Origin: a virus
Length of the DNA: 23,893 nt
IMG/VR virus record: IMGVR_UViG_3300044613_002940
Location: 1-23,893 of that record
Strand: one strand, 5' to 3'
The stretch's first letter is position 1. Every line of letters begins with the position of its first letter. A program made the translations under genes and the position numbers. Shown here piece by piece: positions 13,684-23,893 of this stretch. The notes under the pieces are model-generated. The model was given only the letters and a program-made list of their open reading frames with translations, searched no databases and had not been told where the DNA came from.

Positions 13684-15414
13684 ATGTCCAGCGGTGGAAT
13701 CGAAGCGGCAAAAGCGTTTGTGCGAGTCTATTGGGAAGACTCCGCCATCCGCCGAGGCATTGAAAGCACAAAAGCGATGCTCGAGTCCACGGCCGCCAAT
13801 ATCGCCTCGATCGGGGCTGGAATGGCTGGAGCTGGGGCAACGATTCTGGCACCGCTGACAGCCGCCGTGTTTCAGTTTGCGGGAGCTGGGGCAGCAATCG
13901 ACGACATGAGTCAGAGAACCGGAGCCAGTGCAGAGGCACTCAGTCAGCTTGCATACGCCGCCGGCCAGTCTGGAACCGACATCGGCACGGTCGAAAAAAG
14001 TATTCGAAAGCTCGGCAAGACCGTGACAGAAGCCGCTGACGGAAGTCAGGGAGCCGCCGCCGCTCTTGCCGCGATCGGTCTGAGTGCTGCCGAGCTGTCG
14101 ACGATGACACCGGAGCAACAACTGCAGGCCGTCGCCGATGGACTCGCAAAGATCCCCGATCCCGGTGAGAAAGCCGCGCGAGCGATGGACGTCCTCGGCA
14201 AATCAGGGGCCGACATGCTGCCTCTGATGAACGGCGGAGCTGAGGGAATCCGGGAACTCATGAACGAGGCCGACGCGCTCGGTCTCACTCTATCAGGCGA
14301 TCAAGCAGCGTCCGCCGCCGCGTTTGATGATATGTGGGATAAACTCAAAAACACGTTCGGAGCCGTGTCCATGCAAATCGGGGCCGCGCTGGCTCCGGCA
14401 ATCACTGACCTGATGGGCCGCGTTGTTCCCGTCGTCGCCCAGGTCGTTCAGTGGATCCGCGAAAACGGAGGACTCATCAAGGGCGTCGCCATGCTGGGCG
14501 TGGGGCTGGTTGTCGCTGGCGCTGCATTGACTACATTCGCCGGACTGCTCACTGGTATCGCGTTTGTTCTCGGAGCAATCACGAGTCCTCTGGGAATTAT
14601 GATCGGACTCATCGCCGGTCTGGGCGTTGCGGTGATTCAGTATTTCGGCGGAGCGACGAACGCTCTCAACATGCTGAAGGATGCCTTTCCGGGACTGCTG
14701 GCACCGATTCAGGAAGTCGGCGGGGCAATGATGAAGTTCCTTAACGCTGGCGAATACCAGAAAGCCGCGGAGGTTCTCTGGCTCGGCCTCAAACTGGCGT
14801 GGATCACCGGAATAGACGCACTCAATCAAGAATGGTTGATCTGGAAACACGCATTCCAAGACGTTTTCGATTCGGCAGCTAACTACGTCGTGAAGAAATG
14901 GGCCAAACTGCAGAACACACTGGCAAAGGGTATCGTCAGTGTGATGGCGTTTTTCGATTCTTCAATTAACGTCGATGACGTGAACGCTGAACTCGAGGCC
15001 ATGCTACAGCAGCAACTGGCAACGACAGACACGGCCGCAGCGGAACGACAAAAGGAACGGGATGCCGAATTCGCCTCCAATGTCGGCAAGGTCAATGCCG
15101 ATTTGATCGCCGCCCGCGAGGCTCTGGCGGCGTCCGTGTCTGAGGCAGCCGCACTCGAGCCAGCCGTTCCAGAGGCCGTCACAGCGGCACAGCAGGCACT
15201 GACGACTCAGCTCGATGACGTTTCCGTGAACGTCGCCGCGGCTACAAAAACACCGATGAACCAACCGCAGGACATCAGAAGCGTCGGCGGGGCCGCTCAA
15301 CTGACGAACCTGATCAACAGGACCGGCGAGGTGTCCCGGCGTCAACTCGACGCACTGCTGGAGATCGCACGAAACACAGCGGGCGGATTCAGCCCGGAGG
15401 TGGTGAATATCTGA
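13684..15414 (+). CDS. tail tape measure protein
   Basis: 576 aa. The tape measure protein sets tail length and is ejected ahead of the DNA. The N-terminus has a helix, then a Gly/Ala-rich segment (IASIGAGMAGAGATILAPL) and AAIDDMSQRTGASAEALSQLAYAAGQSG, a pattern typical of TMPs. KLGKTVTEA and LAAIGLSAAELSTMTPEQQLQAVADGLAKI continue it. Strong hydrophobic segments (about 270-320: GVAMLGVGLVVAGAALTTFAG, FVLGAITSPLGIMIGLIAGLG) are likely membrane-inserting. The C-terminal third is Ala-rich and helical. At 576 residues it is short, so a short tail is expected. It follows the chaperone frames as in other siphoviruses. Confidence 0.92.
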   Translation: MSSGGIEAAKAFVRVYWEDSAIRRGIESTKAMLESTAANIASIGAGMAGAGATILAPLTAAVFQFAGAGAAIDDMSQRTGASAEALSQLAYAAGQSGTDIGTVEKSIRKLGKTVTEAADGSQGAAAALAAIGLSAAELSTMTPEQQLQAVADGLAKIPDPGEKAARAMDVLGKSGADMLPLMNGGAEGIRELMNEADALGLTLSGDQAASAAAFDDMWDKLKNTFGAVSMQIGAALAPAITDLMGRVVPVVAQVVQWIRENGGLIKGVAMLGVGLVVAGAALTTFAGLLTGIAFVLGAITSPLGIMIGLIAGLGVAVIQYFGGATNALNMLKDAFPGLLAPIQEVGGAMMKFLNAGEYQKAAEVLWLGLKLAWITGIDALNQEWLIWKHAFQDVFDSAANYVVKKWAKLQNTLAKGIVSVMAFFDSSINVDDVNAELEAMLQQQLATTDTAAAERQKERDAEFASNVGKVNADLIAAREALAASVSEAAALEPAVPEAVTAAQQALTTQLDDVSVNVAAATKTPMNQPQDIRSVGGAAQLTNLINRTGEVSRRQLDALLEIARNTAGGFSPEVVNI

Positions 15415-16595
15415 TGGCTGTTTCATGGGTCAAAGAACTGAGACGATACGACTGGCAGGAGGACGCCGAGGGCAACGAGACGGCGGTCATAGAATATGAG
15501 ATTTTCGTCGATGATTACACGACGACGATCAGCAGTATTCTCGCGCACGCCAGCGTACCGGATCGTCGCTCCGCTCATCCAGAAAACTCGAACGCCTTGT
15601 GCGTCAGTCGATCACTCAAAGGAGCCAGCGACTTCGACGATCTCATGATTCTTACGGCGACGTTTTCGACGAAACCGATCAGCCAGCAGGACAATAACGA
15701 CCCTTTGAACATGCTAGTCAAGGGGGGAATGCGATCAGCTTGGAAAGAGGTTCCCGCGTATTACGACGCCTTCGGATATCCTCTCGTCAATGGTGCCGGC
15801 GATCTTTACGAGGGGCTAGTCAAAAAACAGCGATTGCGACAAATCAACGTGACGGCCAATTATGCAGCGATTCCGAATTATCTGTTCGATCTCGCCGAAA
15901 CGCTCAACAATGCCGCCGTGACGATACACGGCAAAACCTATCCGGCTGGAACGTGTCTGTTGACCAATGTCAACATGCCGGACGAGCCGACGACATCAAA
16001 AGACGGTGTCTCATACTGGCCGATAACTTACGACGTCGAGGTCAATCCCGCCGGCTATTTCATCATTCTGCCCGACAAGGGAATGCACGAACTCGTTTAT
16101 CAGACCAGAGCCAGCGTCACAGCACCGAACAACAAATTCGCGGACGTATCGAAGGCAACATACGACGCGGAAGGCACGGCGAATCTAAAGCAAGTCATAA
16201 AACGCCGGATTCAAACGAGTGAACAGCAGGACACGGCAGAACCCTTGTGGCTCGATCAGAACGGACAAGCGACGCGGGTAATATCGTTGACGAATACGCC
16301 GTTGACGTCCGGAGCGATGACGGCCGGCAGCGCTACGCTGACGGTAGCCAGTGGACTCGTCGAGGCGACGCACAAAGGCTGTCTGGTCATTGTCCCGGGG
16401 GCCGGTCCGTTCGGCAGAAAATTGGAGGCAACAATTACGGCGGTCGCGAGTGGTACATCGTGTACCTTGAGCCGCGCAGCACTGACGACAGTGTCCGGCA
16501 AATCGGTCTACATTCCGGGGGCACGGTTTCGCCAGTTTACGCTCGATGATCTCGCCGACTGGTCGTCTGTGCCACTCCCGGACAATGAGCCATGA
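15414..16595 (+). CDS. tail-tip structural protein with an inserted beta domain
   Basis: 393 aa, TGATG overlap with the tape measure gene. The position corresponds to distal-tail or baseplate genes. The first 265 residues are mixed alpha/beta (NPAGYFIILPDKGMHELVYQTR and similar). Between P-L-W-L-D-Q-N-G-Q (277-285) and F-R-Q-F-T-L-D-D-L (372-380) lies a Thr/Ala/Gly-rich stretch (about 296-368) with SGAMTAGSATLTVASG and VPGAGPFGRKL...ITAVASGTSCTLS. This looks like the small beta domain often found in phage fibre anchors. The flanks read as though they were once contiguous, so the insert may be a mobile adhesive module. No named family is assigned. Confidence 0.65.
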   Translation: MAVSWVKELRRYDWQEDAEGNETAVIEYEIFVDDYTTTISSILAHASVPDRRSAHPENSNALCVSRSLKGASDFDDLMILTATFSTKPISQQDNNDPLNMLVKGGMRSAWKEVPAYYDAFGYPLVNGAGDLYEGLVKKQRLRQINVTANYAAIPNYLFDLAETLNNAAVTIHGKTYPAGTCLLTNVNMPDEPTTSKDGVSYWPITYDVEVNPAGYFIILPDKGMHELVYQTRASVTAPNNKFADVSKATYDAEGTANLKQVIKRRIQTSEQQDTAEPLWLDQNGQATRVISLTNTPLTSGAMTAGSATLTVASGLVEATHKGCLVIVPGAGPFGRKLEATITAVASGTSCTLSRAALTTVSGKSVYIPGARFRQFTLDDLADWSSVPLPDNEP

Positions 16596-17242
16596 GCAAA
16601 CGTTACACGCCAAACCTCACAATCACGGACGCCAGACGCCTGCGATCTGTACTCGATGCCGCAGACGTTTCGACGTCTGGGGCGTTGGAGTCCAGCATTT
16701 CGCAAAATGGTGGCGCTGTTGTCGTCGAGATCAGGGAAGACATAGCCGCCGATGACCTCGATCAACATTACGTTTCCTTGATGCGACTAAACGGTGGGGA
16801 GTTCGTCGATACTCTGCAAACCGTTCCCGTTCGGAACGTTTCGCGCGTAGGGATAACGGCGTCCGAGGAATTTCCCGTCCGTGTCATCGCGAAACACGTT
16901 AGCAATCTCGGGCTGTGCATCGACATCCAGTTTGTTGGAAGTGAACTCATTCAGTTTCAGCCCACTGACGTTTGCGAGGGTATTGGCCTTACTTGTGATT
17001 GTGTCACGGCAACAGTTCTCACGGCGTCCTGCGGTTCATCGGTTGAACCTGGCGACGTCGTTCAGGTCTGGGACCAGTCACGCGGCTGGTTTCAAATGCC
17101 AGAGGCGTTGTTGTTCGCGTCGGTCGGCTGGGCTCATAAGGTCAAAGTCACCGAGGCAGACCAATACGATCTGCCGTTCGACGTCGGTCCGTGTCGCTAT
17201 GTCGTCATTTCAATGGACTGCATCGAGCAGGAGCCAGCCTGA
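16592..17242 (+). CDS. tail-associated protein, unknown
   Basis: 216 aa, starting in an ATGA overlap. The first 65 residues suggest two helices and a strand (LTITDARRLRSVLDAADV). The rest is beta-rich, with a cluster of cysteines in the second half (LTCDCVTATVLTASCGSS, GPCRYVVISMDC; seven Cys in all). It sits between the tail-tip protein and the cysteine-rich protein, and shares TGATG with the latter, so a baseplate or fibre-attachment role is likely. No family is recognised. Confidence 0.6.
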   Translation: MSKRYTPNLTITDARRLRSVLDAADVSTSGALESSISQNGGAVVVEIREDIAADDLDQHYVSLMRLNGGEFVDTLQTVPVRNVSRVGITASEEFPVRVIAKHVSNLGLCIDIQFVGSELIQFQPTDVCEGIGLTCDCVTATVLTASCGSSVEPGDVVQVWDQSRGWFQMPEALLFASVGWAHKVKVTEADQYDLPFDVGPCRYVVISMDCIEQEPA

Positions 17243-18984
17243 TGGCGTTCGACGTCTTCGGCCATGGCCCGCAATATCTGCCGTATGTCAATCCGCAGTA
17301 TTATTCAAACGGGCCGGATAGGAAGAAAGGCCCGTCAAAATGTCGCGGCGTTGTTGGCGGATGTTACGACGGAGCACCAGAACCACACGACCACTCATGT
17401 TGCTGCGATCCATGCCGACACGTCTACGTCGATGTTTGCGGCTCTGGGCATTGTTGCCGGTGCATTCCGAAGGCAATTTGTGCGGTGTTTACTCCGGACA
17501 CCGTCACAGCACAATGCAAGGCGAAGTCATGGACGATGACGCCCTCAACAGCGGATGGAAGATCTTCCTACACCTTTTCACCGAATGGCGATCAAATCAC
17601 ACTGAGCGTCGGTGCAGAAACTGCGGAGGAAGGATACGTTGGCGAATGCACATGGAAACTGTTTTCTGCCGCACTGAGCATCAATGAAAGTAGACTAATC
17701 GACCACAGCGGCGCGGTTCATTGTCAAGCACCGCCGGACTTCACAATTGAGGGGTTCAATTACGTTCGGTACGACAGCGAGGGCACGCCGTCAGATTGTT
17801 ACGGCACAATAACGTTTACCGAAAAGACATTTGCGAAAGTGCCGTTCGTTTATCGCTGGCAGGGGCAGGAAGAGTTTGCGGCGGTGACGTGCGGCAGTTG
17901 TTCACAGATCTGTCAGGTTCTCTGCGTTCGTCGTGGCAACGAATACGAATCAGATTACACGCGAGTGGATTTCCTCTGGGACACGGACACAGAACGCTGG
18001 AACGCGAACGACACCAGCGGGCACTACATCACGCTCCATGAGGAATACGGAAACTGTTACCTCAAACTAGACAGCATCAGCCCTACGACACTTCAGGGCG
18101 ACTTGGTTCTCATTGATACTGCAGCTTGCTCGATCGGAATGGATTTGACTGTCGTCGATGAGGTCGGCGATTACATCAAAATAAGCTGCAATCCCTGTTC
18201 CTGCTGGCGGTATTTGTGCGGGGCGTTTCGTTGTGCCTGTCGTGAACTCTGCGGCGTTGGAGTGTTGGCGGGCGAACTTGTTGAGCCGTTTACGCTGAAT
18301 TGGGACACCGACGCTCTGCGATGGGGTGACGACACTTTTTCAGTCACACCGACGCGCGGCGAGAATGGCGAGTGCATGGTGTCAGTCACCGGCTTTGAAG
18401 ATCCTGTCGAGGTTACAGAAACGAACGACGGATCATTCGGTTTTGCGATTTCTCAAAGCACCGCCGATTCCTTGTCCGAAGGCTCCGCGACTTACTACTA
18501 CTTCCGCTGCAAAAATTGTGACGTTGATTGTGCGAGCGGGACGTGTCTGTCTGAATGCGAAGACGTACCGTCAGTTCTCTACGCAGAACTGAGTGCGGCA
18601 CCGTGGACGGAAATGCTCGGCTGCAATCCTGCCGAACTCTGTTTTGAAACGATCACGTTCCCGCTGGTGCAGGTGTTTGTCTCAACGATCGACAATCCGG
18701 CTGGCGAATGGCGGTGGATCGGGAGTGCGATCATTTCCTGCAAAAATTGTATCGGAGCAACGCGCAAGAATTATCTGGTCAGTGTTGATATCGGATGCGA
18801 TGGCGCTGGAACGTTTAGTGTGTACCATCCAGACGCATCCGCCCAGTGCAGTCAGAATCTCAGTTTTACTCTGCCTTGCGACGGTTCGGCTCCGTGGGAT
18901 TTCACTTTCGGACCTTACACCGATTGCGATGGCCTCAATGGTTGCTGCGATGAGGGCGGGTTCATTTTGGGAATCACGGAATGA
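17242..18984 (+). CDS. cysteine-rich repeat tail protein
   Basis: 580 aa from the ATG at 17242 (TGATG overlap). By my count there are 44 cysteines (about 7.6%). An N-terminal cluster (residues 34-90) includes H-S-C-C-C-D-P-C and G-H-C-C-R-C. The rest looks like repeated beta domains of about 110 residues, each opening with Cys clusters: C-G-S-C-S-Q-I-C (about 217), C-N-P-C-S-C (316), C-K-N-C (423 and 500). W-D-T-D-x-x-R-W recurs at 246 and 354, 108 residues apart. The cysteines may bind zinc or form disulfides. Between tail-tip and glycosyltransferase genes, a fibre or tip spike is the best guess. No named family is recognised. Confidence 0.7.
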   Translation: MAFDVFGHGPQYLPYVNPQYYSNGPDRKKGPSKCRGVVGGCYDGAPEPHDHSCCCDPCRHVYVDVCGSGHCCRCIPKAICAVFTPDTVTAQCKAKSWTMTPSTADGRSSYTFSPNGDQITLSVGAETAEEGYVGECTWKLFSAALSINESRLIDHSGAVHCQAPPDFTIEGFNYVRYDSEGTPSDCYGTITFTEKTFAKVPFVYRWQGQEEFAAVTCGSCSQICQVLCVRRGNEYESDYTRVDFLWDTDTERWNANDTSGHYITLHEEYGNCYLKLDSISPTTLQGDLVLIDTAACSIGMDLTVVDEVGDYIKISCNPCSCWRYLCGAFRCACRELCGVGVLAGELVEPFTLNWDTDALRWGDDTFSVTPTRGENGECMVSVTGFEDPVEVTETNDGSFGFAISQSTADSLSEGSATYYYFRCKNCDVDCASGTCLSECEDVPSVLYAELSAAPWTEMLGCNPAELCFETITFPLVQVFVSTIDNPAGEWRWIGSAIISCKNCIGATRKNYLVSVDIGCDGAGTFSVYHPDASAQCSQNLSFTLPCDGSAPWDFTFGPYTDCDGLNGCCDEGGFILGITE

Positions 18985-20960
18985 GTTGTGACCAATTTCC
19001 GGCGGGATCCAGAAAACACCAGATCTGCACCGGTCAGGCGGATTTGCCACTGGAAAAAATCAACGCCTACCGAGCGAAATGGGGGCTCGATCCGCTCTCT
19101 GAGTCGAAGTCGCCGGGAACCGTTCGTGTCATCGTGCATCAGGGGCAGGCACCATTGCAGGTGCGCAGGGTTGAGCATTCCAGACGGCTGCCGTGTAAGT
19201 GCTCCGTAAAGACGCCGGCACAGGGGCCGGGAACGGAGTTAATCGAACTGCTGAAGGGCTGGAAAGTTCCGCCATGCCAGCAGTGCAAGGATCTTGCAGC
19301 CAGAATGAATGTATTGGGGGTTTCAGGCTGCCGTGAGCGAATCTCCGAAATTGTTGAAGACATATTTCCTCGTGCGAAGGAATGGCTCGCAGCGAATAAG
19401 CCGTGGGCTCACGCGATGCTGCCGGAGATTGTCGAGGACGCTGGCATCCGGTTAAAACTCCGTCACGACGTTGGAAGGGCGATCGACGCCGCCGACGCAA
19501 AACAGTTACGGCGTTCCGCCCAATACGTGAGCCACGGTTACAAGGCCTCGCCGGCGACGTTTGTTGATGCTGCGGAACCGATGTTTCGCATTAGGACGGC
19601 CGTCCGCACATCGTTCCGCGAAGTCAGAACGCTGGAGAAAACAATTGCCTCATTGCAGGCAGCAGGCTTCGAAACGCCGACAGTTTACGCTGAGAAAAAC
19701 GCAGTCGATGTTCCGGGTGCAATTCAATGGACGGAGCAGCTCGGGGCGTTCCGGTCATTCGTGCGAATGGCTCAGCACATCGTGGAAGGTTACGCGGGCT
19801 GGCTTTTGCTCTGCGAAGATGACGTCCAACTAAAAAACGGGGCGGCGGATTATCTGCGGACGCTCAATATCATGCCGGATCAGGTCGTGAGCCTATACGT
19901 TTCAGCAAAGCAGGACGGGTTGCTCGCCGGCGATGGGCTCAGTGAGATCATCGGAGACATGCACGGTTCGCTGGCGTATTTGATCCACTCGTCGACGTTG
20001 CAACAGGTTCTGAACTCACGGACGTTTCGTGAATGGACGTCGGACCAAAGAGTGGACAGGGCATTTTGTAAAGCCGTCGCCGAGGTAGACGCAAAGCTAC
20101 TTTGCCCACGTCCTGCACTGGCTCAACATATTGGCCTGACATCAACGCTGGTTGCTGGTCGTCGGCTGGACGCGGCCAGAACGTCGCACAATTTCAGCCC
20201 AGATCGACACAAGTCGGGACTCGTTACGCTCATCACCCCGACCGGCGACCGGCCAGAAGCGTTCGCAATGTGCGAGCGATGGATAAGCCAGCAACGATAC
20301 ACGGGGCCGATTCAGTGGATTGTGGTCGACGATGGACACGTCCCGACAGAGGTTAACCAGGCCCATATCGTTCTGCGGCCTGAGCCGATCCACGGACACA
20401 GCCTTTGCCGTAATCTGCGAACGGCACTCCCGCACATTCGAGGCCAGCACGTTCTGATCATCGAGGATGACGACTATTACGGGCCGGATTACGTTTCTGT
20501 CATGGTCGGAAGACTGCAGCACGCGGATCTCGTCGGAGAGTTCGGGGCGAAATACTACTACATTCGCGAGAAACGCTGGCGGCACAACACGAACGAAAAG
20601 CACGCCAGCCTATGCCGTACCGGCTTCAATCGCACGGTCCTGCCGACGTTGGAAAAGTGCATCACTGGAACAGATCACCCGAGCGTCGATTTGCGACTAT
20701 GGCAGCGATGGGACGGTTCCGCGCTGTACTGGAACGACCAGTCGGGAACGTCTCGAATGTGCGTCGGTATCAAGGGCGTCAGCGGTCGGCAGTCCTACGG
20801 ATGGAAGCCGTCGAAGAATGCTCAGCTCGACGACGGAAGCAAACTGACACAATGGCTCGGCGCGGATGCGGTGAACTACTCAGCAGGTGGCACCAGCTTA
20901 ACAACGGTTCCGGGCTCGCCAATATCGCCTGGAACGTCGAACACAGCCCAGCGCGGCTGA
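18981..20960 (+). CDS. tandem glycosyltransferase protein (two GT-A domains)
   Basis: 659 aa. Residues 1-200 form an N-terminal region with G-P-G-T-E-L-I-E-L-L (82-91) and C-Q-Q-C (99-102) plus Cys117, like a small metal-binding domain seen in phage and prophage proteins. Residues about 204-400 form a first GT-A-like domain: SFREVRTLEKTIASLQAAGF, L-L-C-E-D-D-V (276-282, DxD-type) and L-A-Q-H-I-G (380-385). Residues about 414-612 form a second, GT2-like domain: LVTLITPTGDRPEAF, I-V-V-D-D-G (447-452), I-I-E-D-D-D-Y-Y (493-500), then acceptor-side motifs. Both acidic motifs are intact, so both may transfer sugar. The target could be a tail protein, the adjacent Cys-rich protein, or host surface sugar. 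Start overlaps the previous stop. Confidence 0.82.
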   Translation: MSCDQFPAGSRKHQICTGQADLPLEKINAYRAKWGLDPLSESKSPGTVRVIVHQGQAPLQVRRVEHSRRLPCKCSVKTPAQGPGTELIELLKGWKVPPCQQCKDLAARMNVLGVSGCRERISEIVEDIFPRAKEWLAANKPWAHAMLPEIVEDAGIRLKLRHDVGRAIDAADAKQLRRSAQYVSHGYKASPATFVDAAEPMFRIRTAVRTSFREVRTLEKTIASLQAAGFETPTVYAEKNAVDVPGAIQWTEQLGAFRSFVRMAQHIVEGYAGWLLLCEDDVQLKNGAADYLRTLNIMPDQVVSLYVSAKQDGLLAGDGLSEIIGDMHGSLAYLIHSSTLQQVLNSRTFREWTSDQRVDRAFCKAVAEVDAKLLCPRPALAQHIGLTSTLVAGRRLDAARTSHNFSPDRHKSGLVTLITPTGDRPEAFAMCERWISQQRYTGPIQWIVVDDGHVPTEVNQAHIVLRPEPIHGHSLCRNLRTALPHIRGQHVLIIEDDDYYGPDYVSVMVGRLQHADLVGEFGAKYYYIREKRWRHNTNEKHASLCRTGFNRTVLPTLEKCITGTDHPSVDLRLWQRWDGSALYWNDQSGTSRMCVGIKGVSGRQSYGWKPSKNAQLDDGSKLTQWLGADAVNYSAGGTSLTTVPGSPISPGTSNTAQRG

Positions 20961-21151
20961 TAACTGACGACGGTGTATGGCTTTTTGTAACGCTCGTTCG
21001 CGACAGGCTCATCGTCGTCACTGTCGACGACACGCTCGACGACACACTCGACCAGTCGATCACCCTGTTTTGCCTCGTGAATTGAAAAAGCGACGAACAG
21101 CATCACGGACAGGCAAGCGAGGTAAACAAAGAAACGATCTGCAATATTCAT
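20876..21151 (-). CDS. small exported or membrane-anchored protein on the minus strand
   Basis: 91 aa. The start is supported by GGAGG about 8 nt before the ATG. A hydrophobic segment (about residues 8-23, FVYLACLSVMLFVAFS) is followed by a beta-rich domain (RLVECVVERVVDSDDDEP ... YTVVSYQPRWAVFDVPGDIGEPGTVVKLVPP) of OB-like or SH3-like appearance. It is the only convincing gene on this strand and overlaps the 3' end of the glycosyltransferase gene by 85 nt tail to tail. It is probably expressed separately from the late operon, as morons are. Function unknown; membrane or periplasmic location is inferred. Confidence 0.62.
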   Translation of the reverse strand: MNIADRFFVYLACLSVMLFVAFSIHEAKQGDRLVECVVERVVDSDDDEPVANERYKKPYTVVSYQPRWAVFDVPGDIGEPGTVVKLVPPAE

Positions 21152-21351
21152 TCTGACGGCCTCCAGAAATCCACGATTTCAAAATCCATGTCCGAAGTCA
21201 AGTATAAACCGCGAAAATGGGTTTCCGCATTTCAGGCATATACTGCTGTCTGATGTTTGAACGCGGGCGATATCATCGCAGTTACGAATGAAACGAGGGC
21301 AAAAGTAAACGCGGATCGTTGATCCGCTGTTGGTAAGAAATCGAGGAAAAC
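21152..21351. other. 200-nt divergent intergenic region
   Basis: This gap separates the minus-strand gene from the next plus-strand gene and is the largest non-coding stretch in the window. It holds a perfect hairpin, GCGGATC-gtt-GATCCGC (21311-21327), about 25 nt before the ATG at 21352 and ahead of its GAGGAAA ribosome site. It has no T-tract on the plus strand, so a terminator is unlikely; an operator or mRNA-stabilising hairpin is possible. A TTGACT on the minus strand (21196-21201) could be a -35 for the minus gene, but no good -10 follows. Promoters on both strands are expected but not proven. Confidence 0.4.
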
Positions 21352-21790: not shown

Positions 21791-22207
21791 GTGGATAACG
21801 CAGAACTGTTATTGATCAAGGCTGAACTAACAAACGATCCTCAAAATCTTGGGCTGACGACAGCACCGGAAGACGACGAAGCGAACGCGAATCTGCTGAA
21901 TGAGATCCGCGAGGATATTCAAGTCTATCGGGCTTCTGTTGCTTCCGACGAGATTGTTGTTTCCCCTTCAGAGTGGGCCGCATTGTCACCGGCTCAGCAG
22001 TCGTGGTGGAACAACCAGACGCTTGATGGCACTGTCAAACCTGCGGTCATTGTCAGTGGATTTTATGAACTGTTCGGCAGCAACACAGCGGCACGAGCGT
22101 CTTTTGATGCGGTATCCACTGAGCCAGCATCTCGGGCGCGTCAACTGCTCGACCGGTATGTGACGCTGACACCATCGGACATTGCAAACGCACGGACGGC
22201 GACATGA
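21791..22207 (+). CDS. phage protein of unknown function (tail region)
   Basis: 138 aa from a GTG at 21791 with GGAG about 9 nt upstream; the longer frame from 21755 overlaps the previous gene. The protein starts VDNAELLLIKAELTNDPQNLGL, is helical and acidic, and has VSPSEWAALSPAQQSWWNNQ in the middle. It has the look of the small phage proteins with an I-K-A-E-L-x-N-D-P start that pair with the previous type. A role in tail-fibre assembly is possible but unsupported. It ends four bases into the next gene (ATGA). Confidence 0.65.
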   Translation: MDNAELLLIKAELTNDPQNLGLTTAPEDDEANANLLNEIREDIQVYRASVASDEIVVSPSEWAALSPAQQSWWNNQTLDGTVKPAVIVSGFYELFGSNTAARASFDAVSTEPASRARQLLDRYVTLTPSDIANARTAT

Positions 22208-22920
22208 TAACGGACTCCGAACTGCTGCAACTGAGGAAAGAAATTTATCTGGCCTTGGTTGCAAAGTCGGGGGTCAGAGAGTGGGACGAGCCAGAGGTCA
22301 ATCAGACGATCTGGATTGCTGCACTGGATGCAGCAGATGGGCTTTTAGGAATTGACTCAGAACCCTCAGAAGGGGGCGGATCAGTGGCATTACCTGACGC
22401 ATTTAAGATTCAAGAGGGAATAGCAAAGACGCTTCGAAGTAGCGGCGGAAGTGCTGCCATAACGCTTGCATCGTTGGCAAACAGCAACGGAACCTCAACA
22501 GGTGGGCGGCAATCGGCTTCGCTGGACATGGGAGCAAATTGGGCTCAGCGATGGCGTTTAGAATGCAATTTTGAACTTGCGGCTACTCCAACCGCCGGTA
22601 ACGCAATCGACCTCCACGCTTCTTGGAACTCAGCAACTGGAGCAGGTGACGCAAATACCAGCGGAAGTGATGCAGCGTATTCAGGCTACAGCAGCAACCT
22701 GAATGCTGCCTTAAATCAATTGGAGTTTCTTGGCTCGCATATTTGCACGAGCCAAGTCACATCAACAGTTCAGCGGTCGCTTGTCGGTGTGATATTTCCA
22801 AAGGGCCGATGGTTGAACCTTGTCGTGGTAAATCGCAGTGGTGCAGCATTCCATTCGAATGATGCCAACTGCGTGATTACGCTCACTCCGCTTGAAGACA
22901 CGATCGTTGAGGACGTGTAA
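22204..22920 (+). CDS. tail-associated structural protein, unknown
   Basis: 238 aa, ATGA overlap with the previous gene. A helical N-terminus (ELLQLRKEIYLALVAKSGVREW) of about 50 residues is followed by a Gly/Ser linker (SEPSEGGGSVALP) and a Ser/Thr/Asn/Ala-rich beta domain (about 65-238). The beta domain contains QRWRLECNFELAATPTAGNAIDLHASW and ends VITLTPLEDTIVEDV. The layout suggests an attachment helix plus a beta-sandwich, as in short fibre or receptor-binding proteins. No named family is recognised. Confidence 0.6.
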   Translation: MITDSELLQLRKEIYLALVAKSGVREWDEPEVNQTIWIAALDAADGLLGIDSEPSEGGGSVALPDAFKIQEGIAKTLRSSGGSAAITLASLANSNGTSTGGRQSASLDMGANWAQRWRLECNFELAATPTAGNAIDLHASWNSATGAGDANTSGSDAAYSGYSSNLNAALNQLEFLGSHICTSQVTSTVQRSLVGVIFPKGRWLNLVVVNRSGAAFHSNDANCVITLTPLEDTIVEDV

Positions 22921-23687
22921 TGATTCTTCCGGGATCATACGCTAACGGATTTGCACCACGCGACGGACGCCCGCTGTTTCCTGAGTTGTGGCGTGGTTGC
23001 GTCGGTGCTTGGGCACCATGCCTCGGGCCGACAGGGGTGACGTTGCGTGATTGGAGCGGACTGGCGCGACACGGCACCTTAGTATCTGGCGGTCAATTCA
23101 TGGTCTCAAGCCGCTTCGCTATTTTGCTGAACGGAACGGACCAGTTTTTATCATTGTCTGCGGTCGTTTTGCCGCGTCCATTCACCGCATCATTTTGGAT
23201 CAATCCTACGTCTGTGAGCGGTGATATCAGATTGCTTAATCCATCCGTGGGCACGTATCCGCAGTTTTTTTGCCGAATAAACTCAGGGAATTTTGAGGTC
23301 TTAAATGCAGGCGGAGATACGTGGCTTACACTGGCGACCGGAATCACTGCAAACGTGTGGACTCATTTATGTTTAACAGCGACCACAACAGAAACCGTAG
23401 GCTTTGTAAATGGTAGTGAAAGAAACACAGTAGCCGCTGCCGCTGGAATAATAGATAACTTGACGTTCGGATCTCGTTACGGAAGTTTTGGTCAGTTTTT
23501 CCCAGGCTTATTTGATGACATTATGCTGTGCAATCGTGTGCGAGGACGGCGAGAAATTCGCACATTGGCATCACGTCGCGGCATTGCTTACGAACTTGCT
23601 CCACGTCGCAGGTCTGCATTGGTGGCCGGTTTCCGTGCCCACTGGGTGCGTCGGCGTTCGTTAGTTATTGGTGGAGGTATTAACTGA
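22920..23687 (+). CDS. LamG/concanavalin-like tail protein, candidate receptor binder
   Basis: 255 aa. The start F-P-E-L-W-R-G-C-V-G-A-W-A-P (about 20-33) and G-P-T-G-V-T-L-R-D-W-S-G (36-47) match the opening of LamG-like (concanavalin-fold) phage proteins. Typical strands follow: QFLSLSAVVLP, FTASFWINP (about 80-88), ANVWTHLCLT, GLFDDIMLCNRVRG. The C-terminus is Arg-rich (RRRSALVAGFRAHWVRRRS) and ends in GGGIN. Such domains bind sugars in many proteins, so a role in recognising the host surface is likely but inferred. The ATG shares one base with the previous stop. Confidence 0.75.
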   Translation: MILPGSYANGFAPRDGRPLFPELWRGCVGAWAPCLGPTGVTLRDWSGLARHGTLVSGGQFMVSSRFAILLNGTDQFLSLSAVVLPRPFTASFWINPTSVSGDIRLLNPSVGTYPQFFCRINSGNFEVLNAGGDTWLTLATGITANVWTHLCLTATTTETVGFVNGSERNTVAAAAGIIDNLTFGSRYGSFGQFFPGLFDDIMLCNRVRGRREIRTLASRRGIAYELAPRRRSALVAGFRAHWVRRRSLVIGGGIN

Positions 23688-23893
23688 TGTACCCGCGAAA
23701 TGCAGCAAGTCCACCGCGAATCGCAGTCGGTGCTGTTGTACAGATCTCAGATGGTGCTGTGCAGACATCCGGTGTTTCTATTGTTGTCAGGCCGGAAGGC
23801 GGGGCGGAATCAGCAGGCGGCGGAACGATCGCCTACAGTGCAGCCAGCGGAGTCGTTTACTACACGCCGACACAGGCCGAAACGAATCATACG
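23687..23893 (+). CDS. 5' end of a phage gene (partial, runs off the window)
   Basis: 69 codons, open to the window end. The ATG overlaps the previous TGA and GGAGGT lies about 10 nt upstream. The protein starts MYPRNAASPPRIAVGAVVQI, continues as a beta-rich domain, and reaches YYTPTQAETNHT. The phrase (Y)-T-P-T-Q-A-E-T-N is one I associate with phage tail-fibre-neighbourhood proteins of unknown function. Nothing more can be said without the rest. Confidence 0.7.
   Translation, partial: MYPRNAASPPRIAVGAVVQISDGAVQTSGVSIVVRPEGGAESAGGGTIAYSAASGVVYYTPTQAETNHT

Follow-up and report, generated by a model that had tools for sequence, protein, structure and literature searches.

Several phages encode glycosyltransferases (GTs) that act on their own virions. 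Such enzymes have been reported for Che8, Corndog and Myrna, and glycosylated capsid and tail-tube proteins have been reported in mycobacteriophages (PMC12363180); the same source, with reference to Freeman et al. 2023, presents Che8 gp110 and Corndog gp38 as GTs essential for capsid glycosylation. Wildflower, another mycobacteriophage, encodes three GTs, one of them a gp110 relative, and an O-methyltransferase between the portal and the capsid protease. In other words, virion glycosylation by phage GTs, including GTs encoded in structural operons, is already known.

Here we analyse a GT gene in a 23.9-kb virus record (IMGVR_UViG_3300044613_002940, 23,893 nucleotides, hereafter the window). 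Its product carries an N-terminal segment, a domain that we call GPGTEL after its motif, and two GT domains, D1 and D2 (Table 1). The likeness to the Che8 gp108-110 and Corndog gp38 system, as far as it is described in the source above, would be that the phage supplies GTs which modify capsid and tail proteins of its own virion, and D1 is distantly related to the gp110 family. The layout, however, is different. In Che8 each GT has its own gene, and these genes lie at the genome's right end, whereas the window enzyme is fused, lies in the tail operon and combines a GPGTEL domain, a D2-type fusion and a Cys-rich partner, none of which is known from the Che8/Corndog system. The Wildflower cluster resembles the window in having GTs inside a structural operon, but it is located in the head region, consists of separate genes and has no GPGTEL annotated. 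An original prediction, made from the window's letters alone, had held that no system with this layout was described. With regard to virion glycosylation and to GTs in structural operons this goes too far, but a three-domain fusion next to a Cys-rich tail gene was indeed not found in the open-licence literature. The same search of open-licence papers did not find GPGTEL as a transferase partner or a cassette of Cys-rich and GT genes either, and both the fusion and the Cys-rich/GPGTEL/GT cassette appear to be undescribed.

Table 1. Features of the window discussed in the text
Feature	Position	Strand	Basis or remark
Tape-measure protein; the GT gene is the fourth gene after it	13684..15414	+	phrog_13338 E=4.6e-40, phrog_8462 E=7.8e-36
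393-aa tail-operon protein	15414..16595	+	some other GPGTEL loci have a relative of it at -3
216-aa protein	16592..17242	+	C-terminal half inside the block shared with G002
Block in common with G002, a phage whose backbone is otherwise unrelated	16946..21183	+	85% nucleotide identity
Cys-rich tail-operon protein, probable acceptor or partner	17242..18984	+	ORF opens with GTG 17191; ATG 17242 likelier
659-aa protein: N-terminal segment, GPGTEL domain, GT-A D1, GT2 D2	18981..20960	+	ORF, family matches, models, dN/dS
N-terminal segment, aa 1-76	18981..19208	+	common to L005/L006 and L089 proteins
GPGTEL domain, aa 77-176	19209..19508	+	helical; GPGTEL at aa 82-87
D1, GT-A domain of the PHROG 854/Che8 gp110 kind, aa 200-408	19578..20204	+	CEDDV at aa 278-282
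D2, GT2-type GT-A domain, aa 409-642	20205..20906	+	EDDDYY at aa 495-500
LamG/ConA-like protein, likely receptor-binding	22920..23687	+	differs from sibling G001

Two glycosyltransferase domains in one protein

The predicted single protein with its GPGTEL, CEDDV and EDDDYY motifs is borne out by the reading frame, which is intact and begins with ATG, and by its translation. Compared with a relative, dN/dS is 0.086 over the whole length and 0.056-0.098 for each domain; since the values are low for the entire gene and for every domain, the frame is not a chance one. The start of the gene overlaps the stop of the preceding Cys-rich gene by 4 nt (ATGA). This fits the translational coupling proposed earlier, although overlaps of this kind are ordinary in phages. 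As a whole, the 659-aa protein had no tblastn match among 50,697 phage records.

D2 matches Pfam GT2 with E=1.8e-5 (25.2 bits against a curated gathering score of 23.3), and the domain alone scores 27.7 against Pfam Glycos_transf_2. Of 55 aligned family members, 34 match GT2 individually at E<=0.01, and in the alignment of all 55 sequences I90, E91, D92, D93, D94 and Y96 (IEDDD-Y) are invariant. The nearest folds to its AlphaFold model (pLDDT 90) found by Foldseek are SpsA-type GT2 enzymes (TM about 0.6). Family matches and model together support D2 as a GT2 domain with an acidic metal-binding motif. D2 is similar to SpsA, TarP and WrtF in its GT-A fold and acidic metal motif, but its identity to them is ~12% and its family has a conserved C-terminal region of its own, GxKGxPGR.

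In the case of D1, the sole match among 38,880 PHROG families was PHROG 854, 'glucosyltransferase' (E=2.9e-4, confined to aa 241-307). Che8 gp110 and Ardmore gp87 match this family at E 1e-101 to 1e-103, with 2e-101 for Che8 gp110, and none of 14 control genomes does. Ardmore gp87, which is 85% identical to Che8 gp110, was also the top viral fold match of D1 in Foldseek. Profile alignment of D1 against Che8 and Ardmore gave E 5e-6 and 3e-7 for the gp110-family proteins, with nothing comparable for the other proteins of the two phages in the same run. Since the three routes agree, D1 is supported as a distant member of the PHROG 854/Che8 gp110 family, the link being remote (E about 1e-4 to 1e-7). 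The D1 model was built on a shallow alignment and is fairly good (blocks mostly at pLDDT 82-94); its AlphaFold/Foldseek neighbours are mimivirus GTs, GnT-I, the GT domain of LH3, COLGALT1 and WrtF. COLGALT1 and LH3 glycosylate proteins. The likeness of D1 to these and to giant-virus GT25, that is, to GT25-type GT-A enzymes, is one of fold only, with no sequence match. For modelling, the N-terminal part with D1 was separated from D2, and a pooled 71-sequence alignment, in which short sequences were misplaced, was left unfolded. The call of two GT-A domains with acidic motifs thus holds for both, by Pfam GT2 for D2, by PHROG 854 for D1 and by structure prediction with Foldseek, which returned a GT-A fold for each and not the missing fold that would speak against the call.

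Used as single sequences for scanning, the N-terminal part and D1 recovered nothing beyond two known relatives, the second D1 copy in the GPGTEL protein L089 recovered only itself, and the D1 alignment was too divergent to serve for a scan of the sequence collection. A profile of the N-terminal part plus D1 matched 10 of 392 planctomycete genomes and 1 of 299 genomes from the phylum of G008, that one being the seed. The occurrence of D1 relatives in planctomycete genomes suggests that the host of the phage may be a planctomycete. D1-type GTs ('VGxTTAPR...QDD...PSLxQHIG') are multicopy in some planctomycete chromosomes (L240-L255).

The GPGTEL domain and its Cys-rich neighbour

GPGTEL followed by the pattern C..C...M...G...C defines a phage domain present in 88 distinct proteins. 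GPGTEL itself, C102, M109 and G113 are invariant and C117 nearly so. Most of these proteins are stand-alone and 100-230 aa long, whereas about 20 are longer and mostly fused, at either end, to unrelated transferase domains. GT2 is fused on the N-terminal side in L104, L154, L183, L152 and L130, and a D1-type domain on the C-terminal side in L089, L094, L095, L126, L138 and the window protein; L111 has a weak Stealth_CR2 match, and other proteins have further partners. Exactly the order GPGTEL-D1-D2 occurs only in the window and the related records G001 and G002. Among these proteins it is thus the GPGTEL part that stays constant and the transferase that changes.

The Cys-rich frame preceding the GT gene encodes, from its GTG, 597 aa with 45 Cys; the true start is probably the ATG, giving 580 aa, because the relative L003 begins at the equivalent site. 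Its dN/dS against a relative is 0.034. The protein has no family match. Of its earlier description as a Cys-rich tail protein, the Cys content stands, and 'tail' refers to the position of the gene. In GPGTEL loci, which were located with degenerate-pattern scans and our own profiles with the query among the seeds, and whose genes were called by a simple script, the gene at -1 encodes at least 4% Cys in 45 of 57 cases (median 7.3%) as opposed to 18 of 348 genes at all other positions within seven genes, counting same-strand genes of at least 150 aa; the loci are not independent, as 12 of the -1 genes fall in one cluster. Homology between the Cys-rich -1 proteins of other phages and that of the window was not detected, and what they share is composition and place. 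One protein, L121, unites both parts, with 37 Cys ahead of its GPGTEL.

Wherever its profile found the tape measure in GPGTEL loci, it preceded the GPGTEL gene, as a rule by three to five genes and most often at -4 or -3; none was found on the downstream side. The window conforms to this order of tape measure, Cys-rich gene at -1 and GPGTEL-GT. PHROG or Pfam matches identify the terminase, the portal, the major head protein and the tape measure, and the predicted location within a tail operon is confirmed by the tape measure (PHROGs) on one side of the GT gene and the LamG-type gene (Pfam) on the other.

Related genomes

The block in common with G002 (~4.2 kb) covers the Cys-rich and GT genes and the last part of the gene before them, with no other complete structural gene. 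Upstream of it G002 has its own set of structural genes, with no detectable relation to those of the window; its record stops 131 bases past the block, so that the downstream limit of the block is provisional. An assembly chimera might in principle account for the junction, although the reading frame continues through it. Both the Cys-rich and the GT genes are under strong purifying selection.

The sibling G001 is a 34.9-kb record that matches window positions 1-23054 at 99.74%, with no difference before about 22.0 kb. Its final 31 bases repeat those at its start, which is consistent with a complete circular assembly. It adds genes for DnaC-like, HD-phosphatase-like and CsrA-like proteins, a repressor-like regulator and a weak integrase match, and because of the last two the phage is probably temperate. 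The CsrA-like regulator of the sibling genome lies at L088:17007-17369 (-). Within 22001-23893, G001 drifts from the window after ~22.0 kb and carries a different LamG/ConA-type gene past 23054. The GT is identical in the two records while this downstream LamG-type gene differs, suggesting that a receptor-binding protein has been exchanged.

D2 relatives were located by the same kind of scan and profile as GPGTEL, the query again being one of the seeds. The non-redundant set comprises 57 D2 genes. In 39 cases a head-maturation protease, capsid, connector or tail-tube gene is encoded on the same strand no more than ten genes away, and in 7 cases a tape measure lies upstream. Homologues are thus present in phage tail and head operons, rather than only outside phage tail contexts. 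Many of the D2 loci near head or connector genes carry other GTs as well, a second GT2 and a sulfotransferase are among the neighbour clusters, and representative loci carry GT8, sialyltransferase-like, MptE-like and methyltransferase domains.

What the enzyme might modify

On balance, tail self-glycosylation is in our view probable, and the Cys-rich protein is its likeliest acceptor. That a phage might glycosylate its own tail or fibre proteins, already put forward in the original prediction, has gained support from the kinship of D1 with gp110, the operon placement and the recurrent Cys-rich/GPGTEL pairing. We favour it because D1 is a distant relative of a virion-glycosylating GT; because D2 combines a Pfam GT2 match with an SpsA-like fold and an invariant IEDDD-Y; because most D2 genes lie near head or connector genes, many together with other GTs; because GPGTEL joins various transferases, keeps company with a Cys-rich tail-operon gene and in L121 is fused to a Cys-rich stretch; and because the Cys-rich and GT genes alone are common to unrelated backbones and are both under purifying selection. 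Against the tail stands the location of gp110 at the right end of Che8, away from the tail genes. Encoding the GT with structural genes, as in the window, is usual but not obligatory in virion glycosylation, and Che8 itself differs.

If the phage does glycosylate its tail, a bifunctional GT working in the host cytoplasm would decorate the tail during assembly. The N-terminal/GPGTEL part might dock on the Cys-rich protein or its assembly intermediate, D1 would move a sugar from a nucleotide-sugar onto the protein, and D2, with its GT-A fold and acidic motif, would add the next sugar or act at a second site. The resulting glycan may shield the tail tip, stabilise it or change its adhesion. It is tempting to go further and regard GPGTEL as an adaptor for the Cys-rich tail protein that recruits exchangeable modules (D1, D2, GT2, Stealth-type), a plug-in form of tail glycosylation in many environmental phages. 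This generalisation we offer tentatively. At its boldest, the idea would have the sugars linked to cysteines.

The target might instead be a different protein of the virion (tail tube, major capsid or LamG fibre), with the Cys-rich neighbour a bystander. The targets reported in mycobacteriophages are indeed capsid and tail tube (PMC12363180), and most D2 relatives adjoin head and tail-tube genes. We nevertheless regard this as rather doubtful, since the pairing with GPGTEL indicates the Cys-rich protein, the block in common with G002 includes no other complete structural gene, and the LamG gene differs from that of G001 while the GT does not. That the enzyme alters surface sugars of lysogens or infected cells and excludes other phages, as in serotype conversion, is unlikely in our judgement. 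A probably temperate phage would suit such a role, and the D1 kin in planctomycete chromosomes may build surface glycans there. However, Gtr systems place a GtrA flippase and a GtrB bactoprenol GT beside the specific GT, and no GtrA/GtrB-type gene was present among the scanned genes (some small ORFs lay outside the scan). In addition, the gene is part of a late tail operon rather than a separate lysogeny gene, GPGTEL repeatedly pairs with a Cys-rich tail-operon gene, and that gene and the GT are all that the unrelated phages have in common. The original prediction had named host-surface modification as an alternative, and it received no specific support.

Very improbable, in our view, is that GPGTEL proteins are structural tail parts whose GT domains are non-catalytic, lectin-like virion modules. 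Most GPGTEL proteins do stand alone, and many of their loci place them near tail genes, as would suit structural parts, but both GT domains retain catalytic-type acidic motifs, invariant across the D2 family, and all domains are under strong purifying selection. A GT that hypermodifies DNA bases and guards phage DNA from restriction would have precedents among phages (Pyle et al. 2024, via PMC12619734). Here the chance of it seems slight in the extreme, given the tail-operon position, the kinship of D1 to a virion GT and the lack of any hydroxymethylase or base-modification gene among the scanned proteins of the window and the 34.9-kb G001 (some small ORFs again lay outside the scan).

If tail self-glycosylation is correct, virion self-glycosylation would no longer be confined to mycobacteriophages but would occur in many uncultured phages, some at least with planctomycete hosts. 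It could be recognised by the order of its genes (tape measure, Cys-rich gene, GPGTEL-transferase), and its cassette would be transferable. GPGTEL adjoining a Cys-rich gene would then be a search handle, and the adjacent gene a testable candidate acceptor.

Apparent glycan cassettes occupy the interval from capsid/protease to connector in L056, L064, L065 and L081 (GT2, GT8, sialyltransferase-like, MptE-like, sulfotransferase). In the tail region of L183, the GPGTEL-GT gene is followed by a CTP-transferase-family (cytidylyltransferase) gene (L183:11893-12525), and proteins of this kind can activate sialic-acid-like sugars. In L005 the GPGTEL-GT gene is followed by a methyltransferase, D2 with a TOD1-type GT, and a cupin (L005:12267-12749). 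The L183 cytidylyltransferase and the L005 cupin genes hint at a possible activation of special sugars. Downstream of the tape measure, L019:7682-11416 and L004:7772-11416 encode giant proteins of about 1215-1245 aa, and the one in L019 strings together three GT2 stretches, Methyltransf_24, D2, TOD1/MUCI70 and a TubC-type docking domain.
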